Counted from the stretch's first letter, positions 38,407 through 59,300 are shown. The stretch: 64,000 nt of DNA from Acidibrevibacterium fodinaquatile (GCF_003352165.1 NZ_CP029176.1:310001-374000), one strand, 5' to 3'. The notes: generated by a model from the sequence alone, not told the origin. Made by a program: numbers and translations.

Positions 38407-38414
38407 GAAGGGAG

Positions 38415-38484
38415 CCTCGGGAGAGCGGGAACGGGCGAGCCGGCCGGCGCTCTCTCTCGGACCGCACCGGCTCAAACCCGTTCC
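38415..38484 (-). promoter_or_regulatory. Leader hairpin of the Strawberry-notch gene
   Basis: GGAACGGG (38428-38435) pairs with CCCGTTCC (38477-38484) and, one base inside, GAGCCGG (38437-38443) pairs with CCGGCTC (38467-38473) around CTCTCTCTCGG. The Shine-Dalgarno GAGG (38415-38418 inverted) lies just beyond the stem. Related hairpins stand before parB (41718-41768) and ardC (42861-42910); stem sequences differ but pairing is kept. Confidence 0.6.
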
Positions 38485-38525
38485 GGCAGCCCTCTCCCTC
38501 TCAGCGTCGCGGCCGTGGCCTGCAT

Positions 38526-38558
38526 AAGAAAAGGCGCCCCACCGGGTGGCGGGGTGCC
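38526..38558 (-). terminator. Rho-independent terminator after the 163-aa gene
   Basis: Read on the minus strand, GGCACCCC and GGGGCGCC form an 8-base stem (38533-38558, one G-T pair) followed at once by TTTTCTT (38526-38532). It lies 15 bases past the stop of the gene at 38574-39065, upstream of the Strawberry-notch leader, and so separates the two transcription units. Confidence 0.75.
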
Positions 38559-38573
38559 GAGCTATGGCGATCA

Positions 38574-39065
38574 TCAATAGCCGAAGGCCCAGGAGGGCCA
38601 GGCCTGGCCGTCGTCCGCAGCGGCGATCGCTTCCGCCAGGTAGCTGGCGTCGCCTTCCACGACAGCCGGATCGGCGACCGGCGTTTCGTCGATGACGGTG
38701 ACGCGGGAAACCAATCCGTCCTCGACCTCGACATGGACGGGCACGCGATAGGCGAAGACGACGCGGCGGGGCTGTGTCTCCTTATCGGCGCGAGATGGCG
38801 CGCCGTCCGGATGGATGCGATCGTCGTCGAACGCGATATCCTCGACCACAGGTTCGCGGCCGTCCGGGTTGACCCGGTCGATAAAGGCGATGACGCCCTC
38901 GCGTCGCTCGTCAAACTCGACACATTCGGGGTGTGCGGTCAACGTCATGGCCGTCGTCGCAGCGATCTTGGCTTTCTCGATCGCTTCGGCGTCGGCATCC
39001 GCCTCGACCGTGACGCTGTCGTAGGCGCGCAGCCAGAAGCCGATCTTCACGACATACTCGGTCAT
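38574..39065 (-). CDS. Hypothetical protein of the element backbone
   Basis: A 163-residue protein starting MTEYVVKIGFWLRAYDSVTVEADADAEAIEKA, a beta-alpha-beta start that resembles an excisionase-free small sensory fold but that I cannot assign. The middle repeats the strand pattern (RRVVFAYRVPVHVEVEDGLVSRVTVID) and the end is helical. It overlaps the preceding gene by ATGA and is closed by the terminator at 38526-38558. Function unknown. Confidence 0.75.
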   Translation of the reverse strand: MTEYVVKIGFWLRAYDSVTVEADADAEAIEKAKIAATTAMTLTAHPECVEFDERREGVIAFIDRVNPDGREPVVEDIAFDDDRIHPDGAPSRADKETQPRRVVFAYRVPVHVEVEDGLVSRVTVIDETPVADPAVVEGDASYLAEAIAAADDGQAWPSWAFGY

Positions 39066-39478
39066 GACGCGTCTCCCGCCGCTTGGGGATCAGGGTCGTC
39101 CGCAAGAATTGCCTCGCCTTTGGCGATCGCCGCGTCCAAGCGCTGACGCCAGAACGGACCGTCGGCCGGTTCCGCGTCCGGCGCGCGCGCGAAGACCTTG
39201 AGCAGGCCGAGCAGCACCTCGAAATGGTCGGCCCTGCGCTGGACCTGTTCGCCGAACTGCGACGGGATGCTGAGCGCCCTGCCGCGATAGGCGGCGTCGC
39301 GCCCATCCCAGATGCCGGTGACATAGGTGTCGCCGGAAGTCTCGACGTCGGATTTCTCGTCGTCCCAGCCCTCGTCCGCAATGGCGAGCGCACAGGCGGC
39401 GGCGAGGGTTTCCGCCTCGTAGCTCCGCTGCCGGTAGATCGGCAGGCGGTAGGTCGTTTCGATGGTGAATGTGGGCAT
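39062..39478 (-). CDS. Hypothetical protein of the element backbone
   Basis: A 138-residue protein. It starts MPTFTIETTYRLPIYRQRSYEAETLAAACALA, which repeats the beta-strand-helix layout of the gene that follows, so the two may be distant paralogues. A later part (FGEQVQRRADHFEVLLGLLKVFA) is helical. Start ATG 39478 has AGGAGG-like sequence within 10 bases. Unknown function; coupled to the next gene by ATGA. Confidence 0.72.
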   Translation of the reverse strand: MPTFTIETTYRLPIYRQRSYEAETLAAACALAIADEGWDDEKSDVETSGDTYVTGIWDGRDAAYRGRALSIPSQFGEQVQRRADHFEVLLGLLKVFARAPDAEPADGPFWRQRLDAAIAKGEAILADDPDPQAAGDAS

Positions 39479-39495
39479 CCGGCCCTCCTGAAATG

Positions 39496-39527
39496 CCAAG
39501 AGCCCGGCGTGCGGGCCGGGCTCTTGG
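39496..39527 (-). terminator. 13-bp hairpin between parB-like gene and the 138-aa gene
   Basis: CCAAGAGCCCGGC (39496-39508) is perfectly inverted at 39515-39527 with a six-base loop. It lies 52 bases after the parB-like stop (39580) and 17 bases before ATG 39478. On the minus strand only CATTT follows, so it is either a partial terminator (attenuation between the genes) or an mRNA stabilising stem. Confidence 0.55.
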
Positions 39528-39579
39528 GTGGATGGGATGGAGAAGGGCGCGGGACGGCCGAAGCCGCCCCGCACGCGGG

Positions 39580-41709
39580 CTATTCGGCCGCGATCACCTG
39601 CGGCGCGTCGGCGTCCGTTTCCTCGTCGTCGGCGAGGAATTCGGGCAGCGCCTCAACGTCGTCTTCGGCTTCGGCGGTTTCGACGGGCGCGTCGTCCGCG
39701 GTGGCGATCCGCAGCGGCTCCGGCAGCCAGCCGGTATCGGCCAGGAGCCGTTCGGCCTCCTTGGCCATGTCGCCCTTCTTCAGATGGTCGATGAGCTGCG
39801 CCGACCGTTCGCCGGCTCCTTCCTGCACCGCCTCGAGGATGCGGCGCTTGGGCACCCGGCCGAGATAATTCTCGACGGTCGGACGCCAGCCGGCCTGCAC
39901 CATGTCGAGATCGACGGCCTGGGCGAGGCGATCGGCCTCGGCGATGCGCTGCTCGACCGTGTGGGACGAGACGCCCGCGCCGTAGCGGTCGCCCTTCTCG
40001 TAGAGCGCATTGACGCCGAAGGAGGCGCAATGGGCGAAGAGCGCCGCCTGCTCCTCGCCAGTGAGGGTGGTGAGCCAGTCCCAGAGATCGGCCTTGTCCT
40101 TGGGCAGCCGCTCTTCCCAGCCCTTGTGACGCGCGTCGATGGCCTTCGCCGCGGGCGTGTCCTTCAGCCCCTGTGCCTGCACCGGGAAGCTGGCGCTGCG
40201 GACCGACACTTCCATCGCCGTCCCGTAGGAGAAATAGCGGGAGAAGACGTCGAGGCAGAACTTGTGCAGCACGGCCTGGAACGCGACGGCGGGCGTGCTC
40301 GCAAGCTTGTCGCGCAGCGCCAGCGTCCGCTCTGCGGTCAGCTCGGTCACGAGGCGGTCCGGGAGCGGCTTCAGGTCCTCGTCGTCCTCATCCTCCGGTC
40401 CGGCGACCTGGCCGCCGATGGTGATGACGGCGCGCTGAACGACAGGCGCATCGGGATCGGCGCCGGTCGCCCGAGCCGTTGCGGGATCGGTGTCGCCGTC
40501 CTGCTCCGGCTCGCCCATGGGTGCTTCATCGTCCGGACGGACGTAACCACGGTCGACCGACAGCGCGCCTTCGGCATCGATGCTGACGAAGACGCCGGCG
40601 CGGGCGATGTCGGCAGGATCATAGGTGACGGGCCGATCGTCGAAGGCGGCGAGCGCCGCCTCGATCTCGCCGAGGCGTTCGTCCACTTCGTCGGGCAGCT
40701 CGTCGGCGCCGTCATACTCCTCCTCCAGCTTGGCGTATTCCGCCTTCAGCGCGTCGATCGTCGCCTGCTCCTCGCTGGAAAGGTCGGCGGCGACGCCCTC
40801 CAGTTCGCGCAGGCCATGGGTGTGGCCGTAGGGGAAATCGATGGCGGCCTCGATCCACTTCCACCCCTCGGCAGCGACCGTCTCCGCCTCGGCCTTCAGT
40901 TTCTCGGCGACCAAGCCGTCGAGCAGCGCGACCTCTTCGAGCCAGCCCCCATCGTCGGACTGGAACAGGTCGCGCAGCACCACGCCGCCGGCGGCCTCAT
41001 AGGCGTCGAGGCCGACGAACGCCGCCCGCCGGTCGGAGGCGCGCACCGTCTTCTCCGTCAGCATGCGGCGGATCTGATAGGGCTCCTTCTGCCAGGAGCC
41101 GGAGATCGCCTGCCAGACCTGCTCCTGGCGGGCATGGTCGGCCGTGACGGTGAAGGCCATGAGCTGCTCGAGCGACATGCCGTCCTCGGCATAGACGTCG
41201 AGCAAGGCCGGCGCGACCGACGCCAGGCGCAGGCGCTGCTTCACGACGTTCACGCCGACAAAGAACGCCGCGGCGATGTCCTCCTCGGAGCGCCCCTTCT
41301 CGCGCAGGGCCTGGAAGGCTCGGAACTGGTCGAGCGGGTGCAGCGGCGCACGCTGGATGTTCTCGGCCAGCGAGTCGTCCTCGCCAAGGATGTCGGTCGT
41401 GGGATCGCGGACCACGCATGGGACCGGCGCGGTCTTGGCCAGACGCTTCTGCTTGACCAGCAGCTCGAGCGCCCGATAGCGCCGGCCGCCCGCCGGGATC
41501 TCGAACATGCCGGTCTCGGCGCCCTCAGCGTCGAGGATTGGCCGGACGTTCAGGCCCTGGAGCAGCGTACGCCGGGCGATGTCCTCGGCCAGCTCCTCGA
41601 TCGAGACGCCGGCCTTCACACGCCGGACATTGGACTGACTCAGCACCAGCTTGTTGAAGGGAATGTCGCGCGAGGACGACAGGGTGATCTTCTGAATGGC
41701 AGTAGCCAT
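39580..41709 (-). CDS. Large ParB/Spo0J-like protein
   Basis: A 709-residue protein, much longer than chromosomal ParB (about 300). The N-terminal ParB domain has NVRRVKAGVSIEELAEDI, LNVRPI and the nucleotide-binding box IPAGGRRYRALELL, followed by the helix-turn-helix KQRLRLASVAPALLDVYAEDGMSLEQLMAFTVT. The C-terminal 450 residues are acidic and helical and are the plasmid-type extension. Such proteins are standard in these elements and are better seen as DNA-binding or nuclease-like proteins than as the partner of the small ParA encoded at 25236. A leader hairpin lies just upstream. Confidence 0.9.
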   Translation of the reverse strand: MATAIQKITLSSSRDIPFNKLVLSQSNVRRVKAGVSIEELAEDIARRTLLQGLNVRPILDAEGAETGMFEIPAGGRRYRALELLVKQKRLAKTAPVPCVVRDPTTDILGEDDSLAENIQRAPLHPLDQFRAFQALREKGRSEEDIAAAFFVGVNVVKQRLRLASVAPALLDVYAEDGMSLEQLMAFTVTADHARQEQVWQAISGSWQKEPYQIRRMLTEKTVRASDRRAAFVGLDAYEAAGGVVLRDLFQSDDGGWLEEVALLDGLVAEKLKAEAETVAAEGWKWIEAAIDFPYGHTHGLRELEGVAADLSSEEQATIDALKAEYAKLEEEYDGADELPDEVDERLGEIEAALAAFDDRPVTYDPADIARAGVFVSIDAEGALSVDRGYVRPDDEAPMGEPEQDGDTDPATARATGADPDAPVVQRAVITIGGQVAGPEDEDDEDLKPLPDRLVTELTAERTLALRDKLASTPAVAFQAVLHKFCLDVFSRYFSYGTAMEVSVRSASFPVQAQGLKDTPAAKAIDARHKGWEERLPKDKADLWDWLTTLTGEEQAALFAHCASFGVNALYEKGDRYGAGVSSHTVEQRIAEADRLAQAVDLDMVQAGWRPTVENYLGRVPKRRILEAVQEGAGERSAQLIDHLKKGDMAKEAERLLADTGWLPEPLRIATADDAPVETAEAEDDVEALPEFLADDEETDADAPQVIAAE

Positions 41710-41717
41710 GGGGATAG

Positions 41718-41768
41718 TCTCCGCGGCGGGCGGCCAAGAGACTCTCTCTCGACCTCCAACCCGCCGCG
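41718..41768 (-). promoter_or_regulatory. Leader hairpin of the parB-like gene
   Basis: CGCGGCGGG (41722-41730) is perfectly inverted at 41760-41768 (CCCGCCGCG). The Shine-Dalgarno GGAGA (41718-41722, inverted) touches the foot of the stem, nine bases before ATG 41709. The loop contains CTCTCTCTCG as in the Strawberry-notch leader. Compare 38415-38484 and 42861-42910. Confidence 0.6.
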
Positions 41769-41891
41769 AAAACCGGCGCAGCCCTCTTCCTCTCGGAGGA
41801 CCGCGCCGCAAAGCCGACGAACTGGAAAGACGCAAAGCCGGAAGCCCGCCTTCCCGCTTTTCCGGAGTTCAGGGCGTTCGCACCCCGCAGA

Positions 41892-42854
41892 TCATGCGGC
41901 CTCCTGCGCTGTGCGGGTGGCAGCGTGAGCAGCGGCGCTCGCAGTTTCAGGCAGGAAGTCCAGTATCCAGTCTGCAGCTTTGCTAGCCTGTGAGGCGGCG
42001 CGCACCACGGCGCGGTTGTCCCCGCGCAGCACCTCGAGCCAGGAGCCGATATAATCCGCGTGGCGCACGGTCGGGGCGATGCCGAGCGAAGCGCAGCAGA
42101 AGGCGGCGTTCATCTCGGCCACCAGTTCCTCGAACGCATACTTTTTGCTGCCGAACGCGCCATCGAGATCGCGGCCGAGACGGGACGGATGGCCGCTGGC
42201 GTGCCCCAGCTCGTGCAGGGCCGTGCGGTGCCAGTTGATCGGCTCGAAATAGGCCTGCGGCGGCGGGACCATCACGAAGTCCGGGCCCGGCGCGTAGAAG
42301 GCACGGGCGCCGCCGATGCGGAAGTCGACGCCGGTCGCGCGGATCAGCGCCTCCACCCTGGGTTCGATCAGGCCCGGTGGCGGCGGTGGCGCAACGGCCG
42401 CAACCTCAGCCGGCAGGTTTTCGCATTGGGCGACGTTGAAGACGGTGAACCGCTTCAGGAACGGGATCGCGGCCGCTTCCTCGCCGGTCTCTCGCGCGCG
42501 GCGCTTCTCGTCATCCGGCACGAAGCGGTCGGCATAGACGACGGTCGTGCCGTGCTCGCCCTTGCGCACATTGCCGTCGAGTGAGAGCGCCTGGCGAAAG
42601 GTAAGCCAGCTCTGGGTGGGGAAACCGTGCTCGATCACGGCGCCCCAGAGGATCAGAACATTGATCCCGGAATACTGCCGGCCGGTGGCGGCGTTCTTCG
42701 GCATGGCGAGCGGCGCCTTCGCCGCGGCCGTTCCCCAGGGCTGGACCCAGGGCACGCGGCCGGCCTCCAGCTCGGCGATGATCTTGCCGGTGATTTCGTC
42801 ATAGAGGCTCGCCCGGTCCTGGCCGGCGCGAGCGGGTGCGGTTTTTCTGGACAT
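41892..42854 (-). CDS. ardC: ArdC-like anti-restriction protein
   Basis: A 320-residue ArdC homologue. The N-terminal ssDNA-binding domain has YDEITGKIIAELEAGRVPWVQPW and GINVLILWGAV. The C-terminal zincin metalloprotease-like domain has the metal site HELGHASGHPSRLGR with the second Glu in YAFEELVAEMNAAF. ArdC protects incoming single-stranded DNA of plasmids and conjugative elements from host restriction. It carries a leader hairpin and is the last backbone gene before the defence island. Confidence 0.93.
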   Translation of the reverse strand: MSRKTAPARAGQDRASLYDEITGKIIAELEAGRVPWVQPWGTAAAKAPLAMPKNAATGRQYSGINVLILWGAVIEHGFPTQSWLTFRQALSLDGNVRKGEHGTTVVYADRFVPDDEKRRARETGEEAAAIPFLKRFTVFNVAQCENLPAEVAAVAPPPPPGLIEPRVEALIRATGVDFRIGGARAFYAPGPDFVMVPPPQAYFEPINWHRTALHELGHASGHPSRLGRDLDGAFGSKKYAFEELVAEMNAAFCCASLGIAPTVRHADYIGSWLEVLRGDNRAVVRAASQASKAADWILDFLPETASAAAHAATRTAQEAA

Positions 42855-43193: not shown

Positions 43194-45200
43194 TCAGTCG
43201 ATACCGAGCTTGTTGAAGAATATCTTGTTCCGCATTTCCGCGTCGCGGAGCAGCTTCGTCCAGCTAAGCACCTCCATGTAGAGGCTGATGTTGCCGGACC
43301 AGTTGAACCATCCCAGGCCATCGGGCATCGGGGTAAAGTTCTTCTCCTTTTGGAGCCAGTCCTTGACCTTTTTGGTGAGGTCGCAGACGACATAGCCGTA
43401 GAACGGCGTTGTGTCGTTGACGAGGATGTCGCGGCCGGTTGGGGTCTTGAACTTGCCCTCCCGGATTTGATTGACGTAGCGGATGATCTGCTGAACCGGG
43501 TCTTCCTTGGAGGATGGATCGGCAAAATCGTCTCGCTGGGGCTTCTTGAATTCGAAAATCGTAATGGGGTTACTGGACTCATTGTCGCCCCGATACGCCA
43601 CGCGGCGATTATAGATAGTGATGTCCGTGCGGTCCCCCTTCGCTGATTTAAGGGGTTTGTCAGACGAAACGTAGGACGTAAAATTCAGTCGCTCATCCAG
43701 AATCCAAAGATTGTGCGCATCATAGTTCAGTTCCTCAGAGTCCTTTTTGCGCGGCATGATGACGTCATGCACCTCGCCTTCGGATTTGTGTTTGCCGTCG
43801 GCTCCGATCTCTAGTGACTTGGAAAAGAGGTCCAGGACGCACTTGCGCATGGAGACGTAGTGAATCAGGTCGTTCTTGCTACTATCGGAAATACTCTCGA
43901 TCAACTGCGAGATTTTCTCACCGAGCTCATCCGGGTTCTCCGAGTTCAGTAGCGCCGTGACCTGCGTTCTTGTCACTACCTCCTTCTCATATTTCTTCTT
44001 TTGGAGATGAAGCTCGATGTCTTGATTTGATGGCCTCATGGGTAGGGCGCTGAAATCCACCTCTTTTGCAAGAATGCGATGCCAGGGCGCGTCATTAGTT
44101 ACGTACTCGGAGATGCGTACTTCCTTGCGCCTCTTCCTTGCGGCGATCTCCGCGCCCACTACCGACTGCACGATCTCGGAGGCTTTTTGTTCGATGTCGT
44201 TCTGGGATATGCCGTTCAACAGATCGGTGTCGGTTTGAAAGCGAAACTCGCCTCGTTCGAGGGACACGTTGTCATTCAGATAGTCGCCGAACACATAGGC
44301 TTTGATGACGAAGTTGCGCCCCTTAGCCAAATCCTGATCCGGCCCCGGCTCGAAAAACTCCTCCGCAAATTCGGGAATGTATGATTCGAGTGGATTATCC
44401 GTCACTTCCCGCCGGTGCGCGACAAGGCTCACCTTGCTCTTCGCCGTTCGCGGCGCGAAGAATTTGAATACGCGGACCTGAAAGGTCTTTTCATCTTCAT
44501 TCGCCGATAACGAGAACGTGCCGTCGTCCACCTTCATTTCGACGATCTGGCTGTTCTCCTTACCCAGGTAATCATTGAGGGAGACGGTATCGGACGGCTT
44601 ATTGGCGTCCCGAATCACCACGCGCGGGCAGGCGCGTTCCTTATCCACGAAATAGGGCAGCAGCCGTTCCACCACGACCCGGCTGATCGTTTCCAGCTTC
44701 TTGTCGGGAACCCTTACCGATTTGATGCCGGAAATCTCGACGGTCGCGCCTGTCGCCTGCGCTTGAGACAGGCCTTCCTTCTCGTCAACGATGATGTCCT
44801 TGTCCAAACCCATCCTGAAAGAACGCTCACGGAAGGTGTCACCTTCGGCGAAAGTGCTAGATACCTTCACCCGGTCGAAGTATTTCAGGCAAGTGAAGCG
44901 GCCAAAACCTTTGCCGCCGTCCGCAATCTTTTGTTCGGTGTAGAGGGTGTCGAAGGCGTCACGGTTGCTCTTGGTGAAGCCTATGCCGTTGTCCTTGACC
45001 ACGAAGCCGTCGACGTCCTCAAGGCGGTCGAGTACGTCGGCCTGCCCGTTTCGGAGAACTTCGATTTGAACCAAACCGTTCGGTATGCCCTTCGCGTCGA
45101 TGGCCTGAATCCCATTTACGACCAGCTCGACCAGCGGCGTGTAGATATTGGTGCCGGAACGGATGTTCTCGACCAACCGCCTGACGTTGACATTGCTCAT
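43194..45200 (-). CDS. GHKL ATPase with nuclease-like C-terminus
   Basis: A 668-residue protein. The N-terminal GHKL (Hsp90/MutL-type) ATPase has the N box ELVVNGIQAID (about 24-34), the G1 box VVKDNGIGF (about 70) and the G2 box DGGKGFGRF (about 93). A long middle region is helical. Near residues 535-575 lies TDITIYNRRVAYRG ... ITIFEFKKP ... VQQIIRYVNQI, with the D...ExK spacing of a PD-(D/E)xK nuclease. It is the last gene of the six-gene operon and its start overlaps the GIY-YIG stop by ATGA. The ATPase call is firm; the nuclease call is an inference. Confidence 0.82.
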   Translation of the reverse strand: MSNVNVRRLVENIRSGTNIYTPLVELVVNGIQAIDAKGIPNGLVQIEVLRNGQADVLDRLEDVDGFVVKDNGIGFTKSNRDAFDTLYTEQKIADGGKGFGRFTCLKYFDRVKVSSTFAEGDTFRERSFRMGLDKDIIVDEKEGLSQAQATGATVEISGIKSVRVPDKKLETISRVVVERLLPYFVDKERACPRVVIRDANKPSDTVSLNDYLGKENSQIVEMKVDDGTFSLSANEDEKTFQVRVFKFFAPRTAKSKVSLVAHRREVTDNPLESYIPEFAEEFFEPGPDQDLAKGRNFVIKAYVFGDYLNDNVSLERGEFRFQTDTDLLNGISQNDIEQKASEIVQSVVGAEIAARKRRKEVRISEYVTNDAPWHRILAKEVDFSALPMRPSNQDIELHLQKKKYEKEVVTRTQVTALLNSENPDELGEKISQLIESISDSSKNDLIHYVSMRKCVLDLFSKSLEIGADGKHKSEGEVHDVIMPRKKDSEELNYDAHNLWILDERLNFTSYVSSDKPLKSAKGDRTDITIYNRRVAYRGDNESSNPITIFEFKKPQRDDFADPSSKEDPVQQIIRYVNQIREGKFKTPTGRDILVNDTTPFYGYVVCDLTKKVKDWLQKEKNFTPMPDGLGWFNWSGNISLYMEVLSWTKLLRDAEMRNKIFFNKLGID

Positions 45201-46423
45201 GTCAATTTTCCCAGAGGTGGTAGCGCGCCGCGTTCTACGAGCCGGGCGGTATTCGGGCTATAGACGTAATCGGTGATCGTGCCGTCCTTGATCCGGTTTA
45301 CCGCCTCATCGATGGCGAACAAGGGCACCAGAAACCATTCTTTCGGCACGATTGGCCGACCAAGGCGATCCATGACCTCGACGTCGAGGCGCGCCCCGCC
45401 AAAGACCCTGTGGATCAAGAATTCGAGCTTGGCCCGGTTGATATTGTAGAGTTCGTAAGTCGCAACGATCTCGACATCTGCCATGAGGTAGGTTGGATCG
45501 AGCCGAGCGTTAGCGATGCGCCGCTCGACGCTACCACCCGTCACGCCGATCTTATGCAGGATTTCGCGGTTCGCCGCGACCAGGGGGTGGTCGGACTTGC
45601 TCCGCAACACGTAGATCGTGCCGCTGGCCTGATCACCATCGCCAGTCTGCTCGTCGAATAACGGGCCGGCGCTGGGCTCGGTAATACGTCGACCAGCGTC
45701 ATCCTTGTAGAGGGCGCGCTGCAGCGATCGCAGCAGCAGGTCGCTCTCGGTGCCATTGGAATAGATCACCCGGAGCCGCGCGTCGGTTTCGCCATTCGGC
45801 GCCTTTATCGGCTCTCCAACCTCCGCCACATAAGCAGTCTGGCCGCCAAGGATGAAGAATTGCCCGGCCTGAATGTCGGCTTTCAGGAAACCCGCATCCT
45901 TGACGAAGGGTCTTGTGGTCCGGCGCCCGCTCTCAAGATCGGCCTGCACGTGCAGGAATAGGGGTTTGAATCTCTCGAAATCCGCGCACTTCTCGCGGCT
46001 CGCGATTTCTTCGGCATCGCGCTTCTCCGCACTGGTGCGCACATGGCGCAGCTTGGTGATCTCGGATGAACCGGCCGCGCCCTCCAGTTCGGCGAGCAGC
46101 TCGTCCTCATCCATCGAGTCAGCGGGCGGGCCAGACGACGCCATGGGCGCACATGTAATCAGTCCCTGGTGATCAAACTGTGTGAGAAGGGACCGGCATT
46201 CTTCGAGCGCGCGCAGTCGGTCGAGCCGCACGGCGTAGAGCCGTTCGAATATATCGCCATCCTCGCCGTGGTGCGGAGCGTGGCCGTTTTTCTCGACAAA
46301 GCGCTGAATCTCCTCAAAACCCGCGATGATGCGCTCCTCCCGGGGCGAACGGCCGCCCTTCTTTTCAGGTTGCGCGAAATCGTCGAGCTCCGCACGCAGT
46401 TCATCTAGGTCGAGATCACTCAT
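45197..46423 (-). CDS. GIY-YIG nuclease-domain protein (T5orf172-like)
   Basis: A 408-residue protein. The C-terminal half (from about residue 265) has GTIYVLRSKSDHPL, then IGVTGGSVERRIANARLDP and a Glu in AKLEFLIHRVFGGARLDV, which fits the GIY-YIG fold of the T5orf172/MUG113 group with the GIY-like YVL and the conserved Arg and Glu. The N-terminal half is helical and acidic (DEDELLAELEG) and may bind partners. It overlaps the helicase gene by 8 bases and the ATPase gene by 4. Probable role: DNA cleavage in the defence operon. Confidence 0.85.
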   Translation of the reverse strand: MSDLDLDELRAELDDFAQPEKKGGRSPREERIIAGFEEIQRFVEKNGHAPHHGEDGDIFERLYAVRLDRLRALEECRSLLTQFDHQGLITCAPMASSGPPADSMDEDELLAELEGAAGSSEITKLRHVRTSAEKRDAEEIASREKCADFERFKPLFLHVQADLESGRRTTRPFVKDAGFLKADIQAGQFFILGGQTAYVAEVGEPIKAPNGETDARLRVIYSNGTESDLLLRSLQRALYKDDAGRRITEPSAGPLFDEQTGDGDQASGTIYVLRSKSDHPLVAANREILHKIGVTGGSVERRIANARLDPTYLMADVEIVATYELYNINRAKLEFLIHRVFGGARLDVEVMDRLGRPIVPKEWFLVPLFAIDEAVNRIKDGTITDYVYSPNTARLVERGALPPLGKLT

Positions 46424-48476
46424 AGCGGCCCTCATCCTTGAAGCGGACGAACGCTGCGGCGCCTTCAGCCAGGTGCTTTTCCCAAGCGTCGGCCGAGCTG
46501 ATCGACGGCAGACGCCCGCGCTCCCGCTTGAACTCGACGGCGCGCTTGGCGATCACCTTCGCCTCCTCGGGCGTCAGGCTGGTGCGCTTGGCGGCGATCG
46601 CCGCGGCGACCTGCTTCAAGCTTTCCTCGCTCATCGTCTTGGCGAGGATCGCATAGGCCTCCCCGAACGGATTGATCCGGTCGATCAGGTCGATGTCCAA
46701 CTCGCGCACGTCCATCGCGAACTTGCGCACGCCATCGACAAAGGCGGTATTCGCGCTCTCCTCGCCGAGCGAGCTGCCCGCCGCGACTTCCTTCGCCTTC
46801 TGGGTCAGATTCAACGCCGCCACAGCATGCTGCCGCACGGCCTCCTGATCCTCGGCGTCGAGATGCGGGAACTTGTCCTTGATGATCTTACCCATGCGCA
46901 CCTGGGTCAGTTCCTCAGGGACAAGTTCCTCGTCGAAGAGGCCGCGCTCGATCGTCGTCTTATCCTGCACGAAGGCCGCGATCACCTCGTTCAGGTCTTC
47001 TTGGCAGATCCGCGTCGCTTCCTCGCTCTTGGGCGTAGCCAGGCCCTTGATCTCGATCTGGAACTTGCCGGATTCCTCGTTGAAGCCGACGTTGCACTTA
47101 TTCGGATCGTAGCCGCCCTCGCCATAGTCAAAGCCCGGCGTCGGCTCGTTTTGCGGATTCTTCGGCTTGAACTCGAAGCGAGGGGCCAACACCTGCTCCA
47201 TTAGCAGGCTCGCCGCGATCGCTTTCAGTGTGTCGTTCACCGCTTCGGTCACGATGTCGTCGGCGGCGGCAGGCTCGGCAATCAGGTTTGAGAAGCGGGC
47301 GCGGGTCTTGCCCGGGGCATCACGGGTGGCACGACCGATGATCTGCACGATCTCGGTCAGGCTGGAGCGGTAGCCAACCGTCAGCGCATGTTCGCACCAG
47401 ATCCAGTCGAAGCCTTCCTTCGCCATGCCCAGCGCGATGATGATGTCGACGTGATCGCGGTTGTTCTTCTGCGTAGGGTCTTTCAGCGCGGCGGACACGC
47501 GATCCCGCTTGGCTGGATCGTCATCGACCAGATCGGCAATACGTAGGATCTGGCCTTCCGGCGTCTTGACCAGTTGGAATCCGGTGGCCGGATCGGTCCC
47601 TTGCCAGGCGCCCAGCTCCTCGATGATGTGCTCCACCTCCTTGATCTTGTCCTTCGTGCTCTCGCGCGAATTGACGTTCGGGATGTGGATGATCGTCTTC
47701 TCGGCGGGGTTCAGAACCTTCAGAATATCGTCGGCGTAGGAATCCGAATAGAAGAAATAGCCGATGTCGAGCTGCTTCAGATATTGATAGCCGTTGAGCT
47801 GCTCATAATAGGTGTAGGTGACGCTCTCGAACTTGCCTTCGTCCTGCGGCGCCAGCACCGCCTCGGCGTCGCCCCGGAAGTAGGATCCGGTCATTGCGAC
47901 GATATGCACGCGGTCACGGGTGATAAAATCGCCCAGATGGATGCCGAGCTTGTTGTCGGGATTAGCCGAGACGTGGTGGAACTCGTCTACCGCGATCAGC
48001 CGATCATCGAAAGCTCCGACCCCGAACCTGTCGACGGCAAAGCGGAATGTCGCATGGGTGCAGACCAGTACCTTGTCGTCGGTTTCAAGGAACGCGCCGA
48101 GCGAATTGACTTTGCCGCCATTGTCATTTCCGGGCGCGTCGCAGAGATTCCATTTCGGCTCGACGTGCCAGTCCGCCCAGAAGCCGTGCTTGCTCAGCGG
48201 CTCATCATGAAAGCTTGAGCCGATGGACTTTTCCGGCACGACGATGATGGCCTGTTTGACGTCCTGGTTAGTGAGCTTGTCGAGCGCGATGAACATCAGT
48301 GCGCGGCTCTTACCCGAGGCCGGCGGCGACTTGATCAGCAGATATTGCTCCCCCCGCTTTTCAAAGGCGCGCTCTTGCATCGGCCGCATGCCGAACTCAT
48401 TGGCCTTGGTCGAGCTGCCGTTGCTGGCATAGGAAACCGAAACGGACGGGACTGATTTTGGCTTGTTGTCGATCAT
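46416..48476 (-). CDS. Superfamily 2 DEAD/DEAH-type helicase
   Basis: A 686-residue SF2 helicase or translocase. It has Walker A LIKSPPASGKSRAL (about residue 50), motif II LIAVDEFHHVS (about 164), motif III AMTGSYFRGD and motif VI EIVQIIGRATRDAPGK (about 375). The C-terminal 270 residues are helical and unlike common restriction subunits. Layout resembles ResIII-type helicases of restriction and defence systems. It is coupled to the 258-aa gene by an ATGA overlap and to the GIY-YIG gene by 8 bases. Confidence 0.9.
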   Translation of the reverse strand: MIDNKPKSVPSVSVSYASNGSSTKANEFGMRPMQERAFEKRGEQYLLIKSPPASGKSRALMFIALDKLTNQDVKQAIIVVPEKSIGSSFHDEPLSKHGFWADWHVEPKWNLCDAPGNDNGGKVNSLGAFLETDDKVLVCTHATFRFAVDRFGVGAFDDRLIAVDEFHHVSANPDNKLGIHLGDFITRDRVHIVAMTGSYFRGDAEAVLAPQDEGKFESVTYTYYEQLNGYQYLKQLDIGYFFYSDSYADDILKVLNPAEKTIIHIPNVNSRESTKDKIKEVEHIIEELGAWQGTDPATGFQLVKTPEGQILRIADLVDDDPAKRDRVSAALKDPTQKNNRDHVDIIIALGMAKEGFDWIWCEHALTVGYRSSLTEIVQIIGRATRDAPGKTRARFSNLIAEPAAADDIVTEAVNDTLKAIAASLLMEQVLAPRFEFKPKNPQNEPTPGFDYGEGGYDPNKCNVGFNEESGKFQIEIKGLATPKSEEATRICQEDLNEVIAAFVQDKTTIERGLFDEELVPEELTQVRMGKIIKDKFPHLDAEDQEAVRQHAVAALNLTQKAKEVAAGSSLGEESANTAFVDGVRKFAMDVRELDIDLIDRINPFGEAYAILAKTMSEESLKQVAAAIAAKRTSLTPEEAKVIAKRAVEFKRERGRLPSISSADAWEKHLAEGAAAFVRFKDEGRYE

Positions 48477-49249
48477 TGCTTGCTCGCCTGTTTGTGGCCG
48501 GTGCGGTCTTTCAGGATGGCCTTGCCAAACCAGTCGGGCACGTCATTGACCTTTGACTCAAATATGTTTTCCGGCACCGCTTGCCAGAACGCGACGATCC
48601 CATCTGAAAATGCCTGAAACTGCTTGTCACTCACCTTTAGATGCGTGTGATCGCGATACTCCACGCTTGAGAATGCAGCGCCGTGAAACGGGTCATCGAG
48701 ATATTCAGGATACTTTTGCTTAAGATCCTCAAGTGACTTTCCCTTGCCGTGCTTATAGACGTTAACTACAAGACGGCAGGCATCGAGCATTTTGAAGTAG
48801 TTTGCGCCACCGATCGGCCATCCAATGCTTTCCAACAATTCGGCGATCTGCACGAAATCAGCCGACCACACTTTCTGCGCAGCGGCGTCACCTCGGTGCC
48901 AATGCTGAATTTCTCGAACTAGCCAATCGCGCAATTGCTTGTCCCATTCATGGAACATGCCCGCGACGACGCTCAAGCGCGTTTGGTCTCGCATGTCGCT
49001 GAGGAGGGCATAGAACTCGATGCCGGCATCGTTGGCAGCTTCGTAGAAGTCGCCGGGGTCATGCCGATCAGGATCAAAACGTCCGCTGCTCCGCTGAAGC
49101 CATTCTTCGGCAGCCTTGTCGGCTTCGGCCTCGATGTCTTCAAACTGCGAGAGCAAGCGCTTTCTCGCCTGTTCGACATAGAAGAGATGGCCGGCAATCA
49201 GAGACTGTCGAAATGGACCCCACATCTGGAACAACACATAGTCGCTCAT
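48473..49249 (-). CDS. 258-aa helical protein of the six-gene operon (HEPN-like?)
   Basis: An all-helical 258-residue protein that I do not recognise with certainty. A motif ACRLVVNVYKHGKG lies at about residues 155-168; the R...N..KH-G pattern is seen in HEPN and AbiV-like proteins, but the R to H spacing (seven residues) is longer than the canonical Rx4-6H. A second feature is the aromatic DHTHLKVSDKQFQAFSDGIVAFW. It is coupled by ATGA on both sides and its gene is placed between methylase and helicase, so it is likely part of the machine or a toxin controlled by it. Confidence 0.7.
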   Translation of the reverse strand: MSDYVLFQMWGPFRQSLIAGHLFYVEQARKRLLSQFEDIEAEADKAAEEWLQRSSGRFDPDRHDPGDFYEAANDAGIEFYALLSDMRDQTRLSVVAGMFHEWDKQLRDWLVREIQHWHRGDAAAQKVWSADFVQIAELLESIGWPIGGANYFKMLDACRLVVNVYKHGKGKSLEDLKQKYPEYLDDPFHGAAFSSVEYRDHTHLKVSDKQFQAFSDGIVAFWQAVPENIFESKVNDVPDWFGKAILKDRTGHKQASKQ

Positions 49250-51999
49250 GATGTTGCCGCCATACGCGTTCTGGTTGCTTTGCTCGATCCTGTCGTCATT
49301 TTGATGTAAAGGTCGAACAACTTTTCGAGTCGTTCAGTGTCGTTCTTGAACCGACGGCCGATATAGATGCGCTCGAGTACCTCGTCGTTACGGTCGTGAG
49401 CTGCACGGAGGTCGTCGGGCATGGTCGCTGGATCATAAAGCTCGGCGATCGTCGCTGGGAAATGTGCCTCTCGGGCCAGGAGGATATTTTCGGCGCAGCG
49501 AGTGAGATCAACTTTGTTCTTATCAGTCAATATCGGTAGCGGAAACGTATTCCAGCCGAGATTGCTAGCGTAGCGCAGTCGCGTTTCCAGCTTTCCACAT
49601 ATCGTCGAGACCCACGTCAAATGGAGCTTTGAACTCAGCACCGACAGATCGACTAGCGTGGGATCGTAAATTGCGTGACCGAGATGTGTTATTATAGCGT
49701 CACTTCCCAGATACCCAACTGGCAAGTACTCTCTGCGCTCCGATGATACCTGCGGTACAAGTATTTGGCAGTTCTTTGCTTCGTGCCGATACCTGAATTG
49801 GTGAGGTCGAGAAATTAATGTCTTGGCGACATCGCCACCAGTCTCGCGATAGGAGCGCACGGATGCAATGCGAGGAGCCACGGCAGGATGCGAGGCCGCG
49901 AAGTCGAGTTCGTCGTCGTTAAACCAAAGGCAAAACCGCAAAATGCCATCAATGAACTCCGACGTGCCCAAGACAGACCGAATATTGCCGCTGATTTCTT
50001 GGAAGCTGCCTCTAAGTGCTTGGGCCTCGCGGCTATCAAGAAAAAGGTGGCCGCCGTCGTATGCAGCGTTGCCAGTGATCATCTTGGAGAGTCCAGAAAT
50101 CGGCTTCGTTTCCGACTGCACGATCCGATCCGGTCCCTCGACGAGATAGGGACTGATATTGGACACTTCGCGCCGCGTAGTTCCGTTGTAGATGTATTTG
50201 GGACCCGGCTTACGTACTCTCAGACCCAAAATTGTGCAGGAAACGCCGGCGTTGTTCGCCGCGTTGTTCGCCCATTTGAATGGTGCGTATGCAAATTCCA
50301 GCTCGCAATTGGCCCGGAAAACCTCTGGCCAGAGCACGGGGACATGGGTGCCTTGATTGATCGAATTAGTAGTAACCAATGCAGCCTTGTCAAAAGAATC
50401 TATGAATCTGCAGGCTTTAACAAAGAACCCGCATACGTAGTCTAAGTTTTTATGCTGCCCTTCGGAAAAAATGGCCGCGAGGTCGCTTTTCTGTTCAGCA
50501 CTTTGTTTCTTTCCGCCGATGTACGGCGGATTTCCGCAAATGTAAGTCTCGCCGCCCTCATTCTCGAAATCGATCTGCGCCTGATTGAGCGGCGTATGAA
50601 ATAGGTCGTCGGCGTGGTGCCTCACGCCCGTTCCTGTCGGCGGGCAGATGCTCAGCCAATCGAGCCGCAGGGCGTTGCCGCAGGTGATCCAGTTCTGCGC
50701 ATCAAGCGGCAGGAAATCTCGCAGGGCCTCTTTCTGGCCGCGATAGAGCACATCGCACTGGTATTCGGCGATAATGAGCGCCAAGCGCGCGATCTCGGCC
50801 GGAAAATCGCGCAGTTCGATCCCGCGAAAATTTGTCAGCGGAATTTCTGTGCGCCGATCGGCCTCATCGCGGCGGCGACTAATCTCCGCCTCGATAGCCC
50901 GCATCTCCTTGTAGGCGATGACAAGGAAATTGCCCGAACCGCAGGCCGGATCGAACACGCGGATCTTAGACATGCGCTTGCGCAGGTTGAGCAACATGCG
51001 CCCATTCTCGCCAGCTTCATCCAGCTTCTCACGGAGATCATCCAGAAAGAGCGGGTTCAGCACCTTCAGAATGTTCGGAACGCTGGTGTAGTGCATGCCG
51101 AGCGTGCCGCGCTCGTCATCATCGGCCACCGCCTGGATCATCGACCCGAAGATGTCCGGGTTGATCTTCTTCCAATCAAGGCTGCCGATGTGCAGCAGGT
51201 AAGATCGCGCGATGCGGCTGAAGCGCGGCACATCGGTGCTGCCGGAAAACAGTCCGCCGTTCACATAGGGAAAGCCCTCGGCCCAGCGCGGAACGCCGGC
51301 GGCGGCGCGCTCCTCCGTCTTGGTGTTCATCGCTCGAAATAGCGTGCTGATCACCTCATGCGTGTTGGCCGAATCCTTCGCGCTCATCGTCTCAACGGCC
51401 GACGTGAAGGCGCGAGTGCCGTTGAATATCTCGGTGTCCTCCGCGAAGAAGCAGAAGATCAGCCGCGCCATGAAGTGGTTCATGTCGTGTCGGCGCTGCG
51501 CGGTGCCCCACTCTGGATTGTCCTTCAGCAACTCGACGTAGAGCCGGTTAAGACGGCTCGTTGCGCGAATGTCGAAAGAGCTTTCGCGGACCTGCTTGAC
51601 CGTGGTGATCCCCGCCAGCGGAAGGAAGAAGCCGAAGTGGTTCGGGAAATCGGCATAGGTGCAGGAGATCGGCGCGTCGTCGGTCGTGAGATCTTCGGCC
51701 TCGAACAGATCGCCATCCGTGGCGAGCACAAAGCGCGCCTTTGCCCGCACCGTCGCCGGGCTGGCCTTCAACGCCGCGAGCGTCCGCGTGACCTCGCCGG
51801 GTTTGCAAACGGCGATGTGGATGTTGTTCGTCTGAAGCACGCCGCCCAGATCGGACTTGTTGGACTCGCCCTTGCGCAGGCGCTTGAGCGTGGTTTCCTT
51901 ATTCCCGAAGGCTTCAAGGAACGCATACGGAAACTCGTCAGCGTCGAAAGGCCGCTCCGCCAGTGCCGAAATGGCCTCTTCGATTTCGACCGCGTTCAT
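49246..51999 (-). CDS. MmeI-like class I DNA methyltransferase
   Basis: A 917-residue adenine-specific methyltransferase of the MmeI/type IIL-like kind. The SAM motif FDPACGSGNFLVIAYKEM is at about 350 and the catalytic NPPY in TYICGNPPYIGG at about 486. The N-terminal helicase-spacer-like part (to about 330) contains HFMARLIFCFFAEDTEIF and GMHYTSVPNILKVLNPLF. A target-recognition domain and C-terminal part with GTHVPVLWPEVFRANCEL follow. I see no PD-(D/E)xK nuclease at the N-terminus, unlike MmeI itself, so cleavage would come from the operon's other proteins. It overlaps the XRE gene by ATGA. Confidence 0.9.
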   Translation of the reverse strand: MNAVEIEEAISALAERPFDADEFPYAFLEAFGNKETTLKRLRKGESNKSDLGGVLQTNNIHIAVCKPGEVTRTLAALKASPATVRAKARFVLATDGDLFEAEDLTTDDAPISCTYADFPNHFGFFLPLAGITTVKQVRESSFDIRATSRLNRLYVELLKDNPEWGTAQRRHDMNHFMARLIFCFFAEDTEIFNGTRAFTSAVETMSAKDSANTHEVISTLFRAMNTKTEERAAAGVPRWAEGFPYVNGGLFSGSTDVPRFSRIARSYLLHIGSLDWKKINPDIFGSMIQAVADDDERGTLGMHYTSVPNILKVLNPLFLDDLREKLDEAGENGRMLLNLRKRMSKIRVFDPACGSGNFLVIAYKEMRAIEAEISRRRDEADRRTEIPLTNFRGIELRDFPAEIARLALIIAEYQCDVLYRGQKEALRDFLPLDAQNWITCGNALRLDWLSICPPTGTGVRHHADDLFHTPLNQAQIDFENEGGETYICGNPPYIGGKKQSAEQKSDLAAIFSEGQHKNLDYVCGFFVKACRFIDSFDKAALVTTNSINQGTHVPVLWPEVFRANCELEFAYAPFKWANNAANNAGVSCTILGLRVRKPGPKYIYNGTTRREVSNISPYLVEGPDRIVQSETKPISGLSKMITGNAAYDGGHLFLDSREAQALRGSFQEISGNIRSVLGTSEFIDGILRFCLWFNDDELDFAASHPAVAPRIASVRSYRETGGDVAKTLISRPHQFRYRHEAKNCQILVPQVSSERREYLPVGYLGSDAIITHLGHAIYDPTLVDLSVLSSKLHLTWVSTICGKLETRLRYASNLGWNTFPLPILTDKNKVDLTRCAENILLAREAHFPATIAELYDPATMPDDLRAAHDRNDEVLERIYIGRRFKNDTERLEKLFDLYIKMTTGSSKATRTRMAATS

Positions 52000-52289
52000 T
52001 CGTTCTCCCCGCTTTCCGTGGTCGGCACACGGAAAGGCTCGACCTTGATCTTGTTCGCTCGCCGCATGACCTCGGCCAGCTCAAAATCGAGCTGCCGAAG
52101 CAGCCATTCGCGCGCTGAAGTGCCGAACGCCTTCTCCAGCCGAACAGCCATCTCCGGCGAGATTCCCGACCGGGCGTTCAGCAAATTGCTGAGCGTCTGT
52201 CGATCAACACCAAGGATTCGCGCGGCGTCGGTCACGCTCAACCCGTTCTTTTCAATACAATCCTGCCGGACTGTCGTTCCTGGGTGCAT
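51996..52289 (-). CDS. HigA-like XRE regulator
   Basis: A 97-residue protein: HPGTTVRQDCIEKNGLSVTDAARILGVDRQTLSNLLNARSGISPEMAVRLEKAFG, the HigA/VapI antitoxin-type helix-turn-helix. No HigB toxin gene is adjacent. It is the first gene of the six-gene operon and overlaps the methyltransferase by ATGA, so it probably sets expression of the system. A TTAG-cc-CTAA palindrome (52306-52315) lies 17 bases upstream of ATG 52289 and could be its operator. An upstream in-frame start is less likely. Confidence 0.85.
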   Translation of the reverse strand: MHPGTTVRQDCIEKNGLSVTDAARILGVDRQTLSNLLNARSGISPEMAVRLEKAFGTSAREWLLRQLDFELAEVMRRANKIKVEPFRVPTTESGENE

Positions 52290-55249: not shown

Positions 55250-57976
55250 CTATGTGGCTGGCCCGCCGAGTTTGGGCGGCATCTGCCACTGCGGCGGCGG
55301 GGGATTATCCTTTAGATGGGCGATTAGCGCTCGTTGATTTCGTAATTCCCATTGGCCGCGAGCGTCCAACCCGCTCTCATAGGGTGCTAGCCGGGTCATC
55401 TCAGCATCGGCCGCATCGAACGCTCCGCAATAAGCGAGGACTACGGCGTACTGGCTGCGCACAGGGATAACCCGGCCGGCGAGCTTCAAATCCATGATGG
55501 TCGGCATGAGGTTTCGCTCGATCACGTCGCGGGCGCCGACGTAGTCGTTTCGACCGATGAAGTCGTCAACGAGTTCTTGGCCGACTCTCACGAAGGAATC
55601 CAGCGATTGAGCCATCGAGTAGAACTTCATCGCGTGGATTGGGGCTAGGCCGGGGTTGTTTCCGGTCGCCTTCACCGCCTTGGATTGGAGATCGAGCGAG
55701 TCAGCGAGATGTTTCAAGTCGTCGGTGTGGTTCTCGCCTTTGAGCAGGGGGAAAATCTTGTCGGGGTTGTTCCCCATCACGTCGGCTAACCTGAGTCCGA
55801 GCAGGTCATAATATTCGGCGATCAGATCGAGGGTGCCAGAGACGCACTCGTCCATCATGCCGAGTTCGAAAAGGGCGTGTGCATAATTGTATTTTGCGAC
55901 CCTGAGGTGCTGTGGCGTTTGCGGCAGCACGCGGCTCAGCTCGCTCATAATTCTCTTCACGGTCGCGACGTCCTTGTCGCGTGCTGCAAAGACCATTCGT
56001 TTCATGCCGACGGCGAGGCGTTCGGACTGACCGAGATTGTTGGCTTTGATCAGTTCATCCATACGATCGAGCTTGCTACGGATGTCCGTATCGTCGCCGT
56101 CCTTGAAATGCGCGAAGACGAGCCCATCGAGGGCCCAAAACCGATCTTCGGCCGCAATGTCGGGAGACGCAGCCGCCTCGGTCAGAAAGGCGGAAATCTC
56201 ATCCATGTAGCCGAGCTCATGGAACAGCTCGTCCGTTGCCATTTCGACCAACGGCTTCACATTGCCCAAGGCCACAAACATGCGCAGCAATAGGAATACT
56301 CGCTGACGATCATGCTCTTTGGGCAGCGCGACCATCACGAGGTCACGGATGGCCTCCTGCGCTGTCTTGACCGCTGGAGACCCGCAAACGTTGAGGAACG
56401 CGCGTCCGAGCGGCCGGATAGCGTCGTGGATCTTGAAGCGGTCGACACCGAAGATCTGGATCGAGCCGCTTGAGCGAAGCCGGCGAAACGCGGCCGCCGC
56501 GTCGGCGGACGCTATGCCGAACGTCCGCTGCAGTACGGTGGTGGCTTCGGCCTGGGCGAGCGGGACATCGCTGAGGCTGAGCGCCGCAACAGCACGCCGC
56601 TCATTGTCATTGAAAGTGTCGAACACGTCCGCGAGGATGAGTTCCTGCGCCGTCTCGACAATGTGCGTCCGCTCTTCAAGCGCCGTGCACAAACGGTCGA
56701 CACTTCCATCATAGGAATCAGCGGCAATCTTCAGCGCATTCTGAACGTAGAGCGGCAGACCCGCGGTGAGCTTCAGCAATCGCTCATAGTCTGCGAAGTC
56801 GCCGCGACATCCGAGCGATGCGCCTTCTACCGCCGCAGTTTCGTTGGACCAACCGAGCAGTCGCTCTGCTGATATGCCGAGCGTGGCTTCAAGTCGTGCG
56901 ATCGACGGGCTCGGTTGAGCGAGCAGGACGAAGCGCAGTTGCTGGGACGCTCCAATGAGGGATGCGATGTCGCCAGGGGCAACACGGTGGGCGTTGTCGA
57001 GGACGACGGTCGCGGTGAGACCGTCGTCCGCGAGGTGGCGACCGATTGCGAAGAGGACCTCCGTCCCGCTAGCTCCAGGCAAGAGAATTTCCCCGAGGGT
57101 GCCGCCGCGCGAGCCGAACATTCGGGCGGCCAACTCGCGCGCGACGGCGCTCGCCAGCGCGGGGCCTGAGATGTCCGCAACATCGTAATAGGCCAGCCTG
57201 TCGGTTGCATGCAGAGCCGTTTGCGACACCCAGGACGTTTTGCCAGCGCCAGAGAAGCCGACAACGAGCCGCACCTGGTGCGCGCTGGCGAGCGCCGGCT
57301 CCTGCTCCTGGGGCCGGTATCGCAGAGGCGGCGCCGGGAAGTCGTGAAGTTGCACGACAAGCTGTTCGAAGAGGTCAGGAAGGGCGTCGACCACGAATGT
57401 GTGGTTGGGGTTTGGCTCGATTCCTGCTGAAGCCGCTAAGATCCGGCCCGCGAGTTTCCAAACGAGCGTCTCCGGCGCCAAGACCGAGAACGGGAGTGTC
57501 TCTGCCGCTGCTCGGCATGCTTCGAAGGCCTCGCCAATAGTTTCCCACGGTTCGGGAAGCGCAGCGTCTGGGGAGGCACACCCCGGATGCACGAGAGCAA
57601 CGTCGGCGGGCCACGCGGAATTTTTGGCGCGCTCGGCCAGGTCGGGGCCCAGTGCCGTATTTGAGACGATAACGAACTGGCAAGCGCCGCTTCGCCGGCC
57701 CGCGAGGTGTTCTGCCCGAATTTCATCGAACCGCGTGAGCGCGCCCTCGATATCACTGAATATGAGGCGTGATCCGCGGGTTTTTATCTGCGCGTAGATG
57801 CGCCTGTCGGGAAGCACCACTTCAACGTCTTCGTCGTTCTCGACGACGATATGCGTGACGCCCGAACGTGCGGCGCGGAACAAGCAGGCAGCCGCGTAGA
57901 GGTGCTGGTAGAGGAAGCCACGATGAACAGCTTCGATCCGAGCGAGCTGGCGAGCGTCTAGGTTGAAGGTCTCCAT
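55250..57976 (-). CDS. Nuclease-NTPase fusion with helical repeats (Avs/STAND-like)
   Basis: A 908-residue protein. Residues 1-130 resemble the Cap4/DUF4297-type nuclease domain: GFLYQHLYAAACLF, VENDEDVEVVLPDRRIYAQIKTRGSRLIFSDIE, with an E/D...QIK active-site pattern. An NTPase follows, Walker A VVGFSGAGKTSWV at about 238 and Walker B TVVLDNAHRV at about 324. The last 400 residues are helical and TPR-like (AKYNYAHALFELGMMDECVSG). This nuclease-NTPase-repeat order is that of Avs-type antiviral sensors, though those are usually longer. It lies 9 bases after the 206-aa gene, third in a three-gene operon. Confidence 0.85.
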   Translation of the reverse strand: METFNLDARQLARIEAVHRGFLYQHLYAAACLFRAARSGVTHIVVENDEDVEVVLPDRRIYAQIKTRGSRLIFSDIEGALTRFDEIRAEHLAGRRSGACQFVIVSNTALGPDLAERAKNSAWPADVALVHPGCASPDAALPEPWETIGEAFEACRAAAETLPFSVLAPETLVWKLAGRILAASAGIEPNPNHTFVVDALPDLFEQLVVQLHDFPAPPLRYRPQEQEPALASAHQVRLVVGFSGAGKTSWVSQTALHATDRLAYYDVADISGPALASAVARELAARMFGSRGGTLGEILLPGASGTEVLFAIGRHLADDGLTATVVLDNAHRVAPGDIASLIGASQQLRFVLLAQPSPSIARLEATLGISAERLLGWSNETAAVEGASLGCRGDFADYERLLKLTAGLPLYVQNALKIAADSYDGSVDRLCTALEERTHIVETAQELILADVFDTFNDNERRAVAALSLSDVPLAQAEATTVLQRTFGIASADAAAAFRRLRSSGSIQIFGVDRFKIHDAIRPLGRAFLNVCGSPAVKTAQEAIRDLVMVALPKEHDRQRVFLLLRMFVALGNVKPLVEMATDELFHELGYMDEISAFLTEAAASPDIAAEDRFWALDGLVFAHFKDGDDTDIRSKLDRMDELIKANNLGQSERLAVGMKRMVFAARDKDVATVKRIMSELSRVLPQTPQHLRVAKYNYAHALFELGMMDECVSGTLDLIAEYYDLLGLRLADVMGNNPDKIFPLLKGENHTDDLKHLADSLDLQSKAVKATGNNPGLAPIHAMKFYSMAQSLDSFVRVGQELVDDFIGRNDYVGARDVIERNLMPTIMDLKLAGRVIPVRSQYAVVLAYCGAFDAADAEMTRLAPYESGLDARGQWELRNQRALIAHLKDNPPPPQWQMPPKLGGPAT

Positions 57977-57985
57977 GCCGCCCCT

Positions 57986-58606
57986 CTATTGCACTTGGAG
58001 AGGCTGGAAGCGGAATTCCGCGACCGAGGCGAGGCCTTCGAACTCGGCGATGTAATGCCGGTAGGCGAAGTTGATAAGGTCTCTCACCAACTCAAGAAGG
58101 CCACCCGTCGGCAGTCCATCAAACGGGTCGCCATGGGCCAGCGAGTTTCGACGCTCGGCGAGAGTGGGATGTGTCTCGCCCGTCAATTGACCGATCGCAG
58201 TTCCTCCACAGCGCACGACCATCGGAATTTGCGCGTCGGTCAGGCCGTCGGAATCGACCATGAATTTGAGGAGCGCCGCAAAGCTTCGCTTGTTCTTCGA
58301 GATGCGTCCTCCGTACCGATCCATCAGCGCCAACTCTAGGGCGATCAGGGCTGCAAGCTCGCCTGCCTTCAAGACACTGAAGTCGACCCAGCCCAGCAGG
58401 TAGAGGGTCTGCGCCCGGGCAAACTTTGCTCGCACGATCTCGGGAATGCGCGTGTCGATGCCCAGACTCGCGACGAAGGCACGCCAATCGGCAGCCTTCT
58501 CAAATTGGATGAATCCGCCCGCACTGCCCTCTGTCGGCCATGCGAGCAACAACGCCTCGTCCCGGTCGCTGAGCGTGATGTGAAGGTGATCCGCCATCGC
58601 GTTCAC
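57986..58606 (-). CDS. 206-aa protein with an HEPN-type RNSLAH motif
   Basis: A 206-residue, mostly helical protein. The motif RRNSLAHGDPFDGLP near residue 150 contains R-x4-H, the HEPN RNase signature, preceded by VVRCGGTAIGQLTGETHPTLAE. The N-terminus (HLHITLSDRDEALLLAW) is beta-like. A GTG start at 58606 overlaps the previous gene as GTGA; ATG 58597 is the alternative. Its gene sits directly before the NTPase gene, so it may be an effector or control subunit. RNase activity is inferred from the motif only. Confidence 0.75.
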   Translation of the reverse strand: MNAMADHLHITLSDRDEALLLAWPTEGSAGGFIQFEKAADWRAFVASLGIDTRIPEIVRAKFARAQTLYLLGWVDFSVLKAGELAALIALELALMDRYGGRISKNKRSFAALLKFMVDSDGLTDAQIPMVVRCGGTAIGQLTGETHPTLAERRNSLAHGDPFDGLPTGGLLELVRDLINFAYRHYIAEFEGLASVAEFRFQPLQVQ

Positions 58607-59157: not shown

Positions 59158-59179
59158 GACGGGGCCTCCTTTACCGGGC

Positions 59180-59208: not shown

Positions 59209-59300
59209 TGGTTGCGCGCAGGGTCTAAGCACAGGGAGCCAATGCGGTAGGGCATGGCCGCGCTGCGGTGAGCCTGCGTCGAAGCGACCGAGCAAAGACG

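Follow-up and report, generated by a model that had tools for sequence, protein, structure and literature searches.

The window analysed here, which is the whole stretch of 64,000 nucleotides from Acidibrevibacterium fodinaquatile (GCF_003352165.1, NZ_CP029176.1:310001-374000), carries between positions 43194 and 52289 six open reading frames on the minus strand, all of them confirmed and listed below from the 5' end of the operon:

51996-52289, minus strand: HigA-like XRE regulator (NCBIfam antidote_HigA, 2.6e-22), an optional first gene
49246-51999, minus strand: YeeA/DnmA-type MmeI-family adenine methylase, 917 aa (Pfam MmeI domains; PADLOC REase_MTase_IIG PDLC03598, 1.5e-271)
48473-49249, minus strand: 258-aa all-helical protein (AlphaFold2 model helical), located in the yeeA-yeeB cargo slot
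46416-48476, minus strand: YeeB SF2 helicase/translocase (DEAD/ResIII; conserved helicase motifs)
45197-46435, minus strand: YeeC GIY-YIG (T5orf172/MUG113) nuclease, with its start at 46435 or 46423 (MUG113 4e-13, T5orf172 7.5e-11)
43194-45200, minus strand: GHKL ATPase with a C-terminal PD-ExK motif, of the paraMORC3 type by its sequence motifs, an optional 3'-end gene

All six genes are intact, and all five junctions overlap in the sequence, as the first-pass annotation of this DNA had described. The ATGA overlaps were read at the XRE/methylase, methylase/258-aa, 258-aa/helicase and GIY-YIG/GHKL junctions, and the helicase/GIY-YIG overlap amounts to 8 bases with the GIY-YIG start at 46423 or, possibly, to 20 bases with the upstream ATG at 46435. 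The XRE frame has likewise an alternative upstream start at 52385; the start at 52289 is favoured because the match to the HigA family starts at residue 30. The G+C content of the operon is 54-61%, against 66-69% in the preceding part of the element.

The defence-type character of the operon and the identities of the methylase, helicase, GIY-YIG and GHKL proteins, proposed in the same annotation, were confirmed by domain searches (for the GHKL protein, by HATPase_c together with the motifs). Its statement that no DISARM or BREX set is present also stands, since none of the six proteins matches the PglZ, BrxC, DrmA or DrmB models, and the weak PglX and DrmMI matches in PADLOC fall within the methylase only. 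The resemblance to the PADLOC system Hma, in contrast, was not confirmed: the Hma profiles gave no match to the six proteins, so that membership was rejected, and the helicase, methylase and ATPase are shared with Hma in broad terms only.

By their sequences, the methylase, the SF2 helicase and the GIY-YIG nuclease are members of the YeeA(DnmA)-YeeB-YeeC family. The core is not new, having been described already (PMC7261158, PMC9973331), which was missed when the operon was put forward as a candidate new system; what the six genes represent is a variant within this family rather than a new type of system. The sampled loci comprised the 80 best genome-contig loci, evenly drawn class and phylum genomes, and plasmids. 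The three core genes accompany one another at almost all of the helicase-positive loci checked that lie on long enough contigs, with the helicase directly downstream of the methylase or one cargo gene further and with the T5orf172/GIY-YIG protein adjoining the 3' side of the helicase, and their order and orientation are kept across Alpha-, Beta- and Gammaproteobacteria, Bacillota and Cyanobacteriota. YeeB is the annotated name of one plasmid homologue of the window helicase, and the synteny of dnmA-yeeB-yeeC has been reported as conserved (PMC9973331). In Bacillus subtilis, yeeB and yeeC lie 3' of the gene for DnmA, a methylase that forms m6A at GACGAG and is devoid of the MmeI nuclease motif (PMC7261158); a Type I-like restriction system was suggested for these genes by Morgan 2009, as cited in PMC7261158. 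The YeeABC loci of B. subtilis and Vibrio crassostreae have the same three proteins in the same order and orientation as the window, namely a methylase without the nuclease motif, an SF2 helicase and a T5orf172 GIY-YIG nuclease, whereas the window operon adds the HigA-like regulator, the 258-aa slot protein and the GHKL-PD-ExK protein.

The 917-aa methylase is matched by all five MmeI domains, MmeI_N, hel, Mtase, TRD and C (up to 1e-108), MmeI (5hr4) is its sole PDB match, and its variable target recognition domain lies at about residues 622-823. All five domains are thus common to this protein and Type IIL MmeI; however, the window methylase has no PD-ExK (D-x9-ExK) motif, and cutting is assigned to separate proteins. 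In the aligned region of the N-terminal domain the ExK nuclease motif was absent from 63 of 63 methylase homologues, with the NPPY-type methylase motif retained. A methylase acting as its own nuclease in the manner of MmeI is ruled out by this loss, and the cutting activity has to be supplied by YeeC or another protein. It appears, from the conservation of motifs, that recognition and marking have been retained in the methylase and that cutting has moved to separate, active-looking proteins: the YeeB Walker A (SGKS), DEFH and QIIGRxTR (QIIGRATRD in the window) motifs are essentially invariant among 14 homologues, and the YeeC residues G272, Y275, K295, G297, R306 and E338 are invariant among 116.

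Co-occurrence, which holds for these three genes, fails for the six taken as one set. None of the other sampled loci carries all six, and the relative G140 has five, without the 258-aa gene. The original proposal of a single new antiviral complex, with all six proteins as obligate parts, draws some support from the tight overlaps at all five junctions and from the five-gene relative, with its 95% identical GHKL protein; nevertheless it is hardly tenable, and a fixed six-part system was rejected by the census of loci. The three-gene version is common, while the 258-aa family is present between yeeA and yeeB at 7 of 103 loci (the window and six others). Within the clade whose helicases share 66% identity or more with that of the window, the GHKL protein stands 3' of yeeC at 4 of 92 (in the window itself and as homologues of 95%, 89% and 26% identity), and the HigA-like regulator lies 5' of the methylase at 12 of 87. 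Moreover, 258-aa and GHKL homologues are also found without the core. The first slot gene shares the same 4-base ATGA overlap with the methylase stop in 40 occupied slots, whatever the cargo, so that the overlap is no proof of obligate partnership. The regulator, which matches the HigA/HTH_3 families and has no HigB toxin gene beside it, was found also at an Agrobacterium rubi locus.

In the clade to which the window belongs, the yeeA-yeeB junction contains gene-size extra DNA, usually one gene, in 60 of 103 loci and is empty in 43; an evenly drawn subset had the slot occupied in 12 of 21, so the selection of best-matching loci does not account for this occupancy. At the yeeB-yeeC junction no inserted gene was found in 104 loci, where two apparent gaps of more than 150 bases were seen, one of 584 bases (L079) being a reading-frame break and the other measuring 207 bases (L148). 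Within the distant clade, with helicases up to about 61% identical, the slot was empty at 13 of 14 loci and bore cargo at one. The occupants received about 25 labels, for which at least 20 unrelated families is the safer figure, some singletons being short or opposite-strand frames and the BrnT group having been merged by hand; they include RhuM, DUF1016/YhcG nuclease, BrnT, SLFN_AlbA_2, Zeta toxin, PIN, GmrSD_N, DUF559, PDDEXK_4, DUF4351 and several families of no assigned name. A RelE/ParE-type occupant was seen in Synechococcus. The DUF1016 and RhuM occupants correspond to the PADLOC phage-defence candidates PDC-S02 and PDC-S05. Slots with two or more genes (RhuM and another cargo) were observed at L047, L063, L166 and L167, reaching 7 kb in the last. 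A second, looser cargo position, in which the window GHKL gene is located, lies 3' of yeeC, and one family of phospholipase-D-like appearance (without a Pfam match) occurs in both positions. Other defence-like genes seen 3' of yeeC and named by their sequence appearance were PHP/TrlF-like (overlapping yeeC), SIR2-like and DUF262/GmrSD-like at L161, L070 and L091, and in Acidiphilium iwatense (L048) a 694-aa frame, the start of which reads like a reverse transcriptase, begins 3 bases after the yeeC stop. No prior description of the cargo slot was found in the literature searched, the coverage of which was incomplete.

The cargo of the slot and of the 3' position could be mere co-transcribed passengers, neutral or acting as addiction modules that stabilise the operon, as the toxin-antitoxin-type occupants (BrnT, PIN, Zeta and RelE/ParE) would suggest. 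This explanation concerns the accessory part only and is compatible with a restriction role of the core, but we regard it as doubtful, since nucleases and PADLOC defence candidates are numerous among the occupants and since insertion within the core is confined to one junction, though passengers could sit elsewhere.

Both the cargo and the recognition domain are exchanged between closely related operons. Helicases 97-98% identical are accompanied by different slot contents in the pairs L098/L099, L102/L104, L081/L085, L048/L146 and L067/L161, and comparison of the DNA shows that homology between operons which are otherwise similar is interrupted twice: over the recognition domain, from about 1290 to 330 bases before the methylase stop, and over the slot, the breakpoints of which fall at that stop and some 15-20 bases inside yeeB. 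Of the 35 (mutually non-independent) pairs whose helicases share 93% identity or more, 34 have recognition domains with no more than 55% identity, among them pairs that agree in slot state, which indicates that recognition is swapped faster than the cargo and separately from it. Movement of cargo with the recognition domain as the sole route was rejected, given that 10 near-identical pairs share the slot state and differ in the recognition domain. When mapped on the phylogeny, slot content showed weak inheritance (54 changes versus 57-60 in shuffles), and slot occupancy gave 30 changes versus 27-41. In the pair L098/L099, from metagenome-assembled genomes named Sneathiella and Henriciella, the long flanks are 85-97% identical on both sides and the recognition domain and slot are swapped in place; this case may be useful for dating the exchange or may be a binning artefact.

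The YeeABC family is widespread on plasmids and chromosomes, is little studied and has been judged defunct in B. subtilis. There, deletion of yeeB or yeeC left infection by three phages unchanged, phages show no avoidance of DnmA sites (PMC9973331), and loss of dnmA left transformation unchanged, while dnmA affects gene expression (PMC7261158). In agreement with such data, it has been proposed for dnmA-yeeB-yeeC that the methylase is an orphan-like regulator of expression and the remainder a decaying restriction relic, to which the accessory genes of the window would be added as passengers. Such an origin is unlikely for the window operon: the catalytic residues of the helicase and the GIY-YIG protein are invariant over wide distances, the six genes have no lesion, and the very fast swapping of the recognition domain is expected for restriction under selection, not for a regulator. 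In addition, deletion of the dnmA or yeeB homologue in Vibrio crassostreae is stated in PMC9973331, citing another study, to increase sensitivity to some phages. The intact catalytic residues and the rapid exchange of recognition domain and cargo would argue that many YeeABC members are active; nevertheless, the null deletion results in B. subtilis mean that inactivity, or another mode of action, is possible in some of them.

The operon is probably a Type I-like ATP-dependent restriction-modification system that belongs to the YeeA-YeeB-YeeC family and carries accessory defence genes as cargo. In it, the MmeI-like methylase, which has lost the cutting motif, would recognise an asymmetric site and mark one strand, by comparison with DnmA; the SF2 protein would translocate or unwind DNA from unmethylated sites; and the GIY-YIG protein, with its catalytic residues in place, would cut. 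The HigA-like protein may repress the operon, so that methylation precedes restriction. The 258-aa and GHKL-PD-ExK proteins, coupled by ATGA overlaps, would be exchangeable accessories, as their positions and exchange suggest, and most likely serve as back-up effectors when restriction is evaded, by analogy with PrrC in EcoprrI. The nesting of PrrC inside EcoprrI is a precedent for such a back-up (PMC3874165), with a further one in the restriction-linked rlo genes of the Campylobacter hsd loci (PMC2610378); in PrrC-type nesting the embedded toxin is silenced by the restriction enzyme and freed by a phage anti-restriction factor (PMC3874165, PMC2610378). These loci have in common with the window operon an accessory toxin or nuclease gene inside a restriction operon, but the YeeABC loci differ from them by their restriction core and by the many exchangeable families at one junction.

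A wider proposal, offered tentatively as possible rather than probable, is that one YeeABC clade is a modular defence platform, in which near-identical operons exchange the recognition domain and the yeeA-yeeB cargo, along with the content of the looser 3' site, and any toxin or nuclease in the slot is under the control or guard of the core. The slot makes the question of whether a restriction enzyme guards a nested gene testable beyond EcoprrI/PrrC, and represents a catalogue of candidate defence genes, among them the 258-aa helical and the 277-aa, 137-aa and 287-aa families.

The 258-aa protein gave no match in Pfam, PADLOC or NCBIfam. Its AlphaFold2 model is all-helical (mean pLDDT 86.8) and matched no PDB fold at E <= 0.001, and its family has a conserved N-V-x-K-H-G-x-G motif. 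A HEPN identity, to which the N-V-x-K-H-G part might point, is not claimed, as no HEPN family or fold was matched. Outside YeeABC, homologues are carried by Citrobacter plasmids and also occur next to an Abi gene in a prophage-like region. From its position and the company it keeps, the protein is most likely an accessory defence effector and, if YeeABC is indeed a modular platform, would be a new effector type.

The GHKL protein has the motifs D70-N-G-x-G and G95-x-x-G-x-G-R; HATPase_c falls below the Pfam cut-off on the window protein alone and was matched in nine of nine family members. The PD-ExK motif noted at first pass is present as E474-D526-E550-x-K552 and is invariant in nine homologues; a structure model built from three sequences was of low confidence (pLDDT 31.7), so that the nuclease fold and the S5 domain expected between the GHKL and nuclease parts of a paraMORC3 protein are putative here. 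The combination of GHKL motifs with an E-D-ExK set defines paraMORC3 (PMC2292703), and VcSduA (GHKL-Shedu), with the same layout of a GHKL ATPase and a C-terminal E-D-ExK motif in one protein, protects alone and needs both its ATPase and its nuclease (PMC12137116), whereas the window gene is encoded in a YeeABC operon. Membership in Shedu (type I-D, VcSduA) by profile was rejected, as DUF4263 was not matched in the Pfam scan of the nine family members and SduA was not matched in PADLOC; by these profiles and its motifs the protein is accordingly classed as paraMORC3-like and not as Shedu. The 95% and 89% identical genes directly follow yeeC in two other genomes, but homologues 80% (Rhizobium), 60% and 50% identical stand alone on plasmids, which leaves the initial assignment of GHKL sensing within the system tentative; like VcSduA, the protein probably also works alone. 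On a Vibrio fluvialis plasmid (L024, 6556-9950), a Type I restriction operon ends with a Shedu gene and an overlapping 32%-identical GHKL gene of the paraMORC3 type.

Directly downstream of the operon (34072-42854) the window encodes a Strawberry-notch-type helicase (1501 aa), a ParB-like protein and an ArdC anti-restriction protein. The region further left has the look of conjugation genes, which makes an integrative conjugative element the probable carrier of the operon. On the other side, at 55250-61133 and 62289-63605, further candidate defence genes lie beside the operon: they encode a 908-aa NTPase, the N-terminal part of which weakly matches the Cap4 nuclease, an OLD/DUF2813-like ATPase and an HNH protein.
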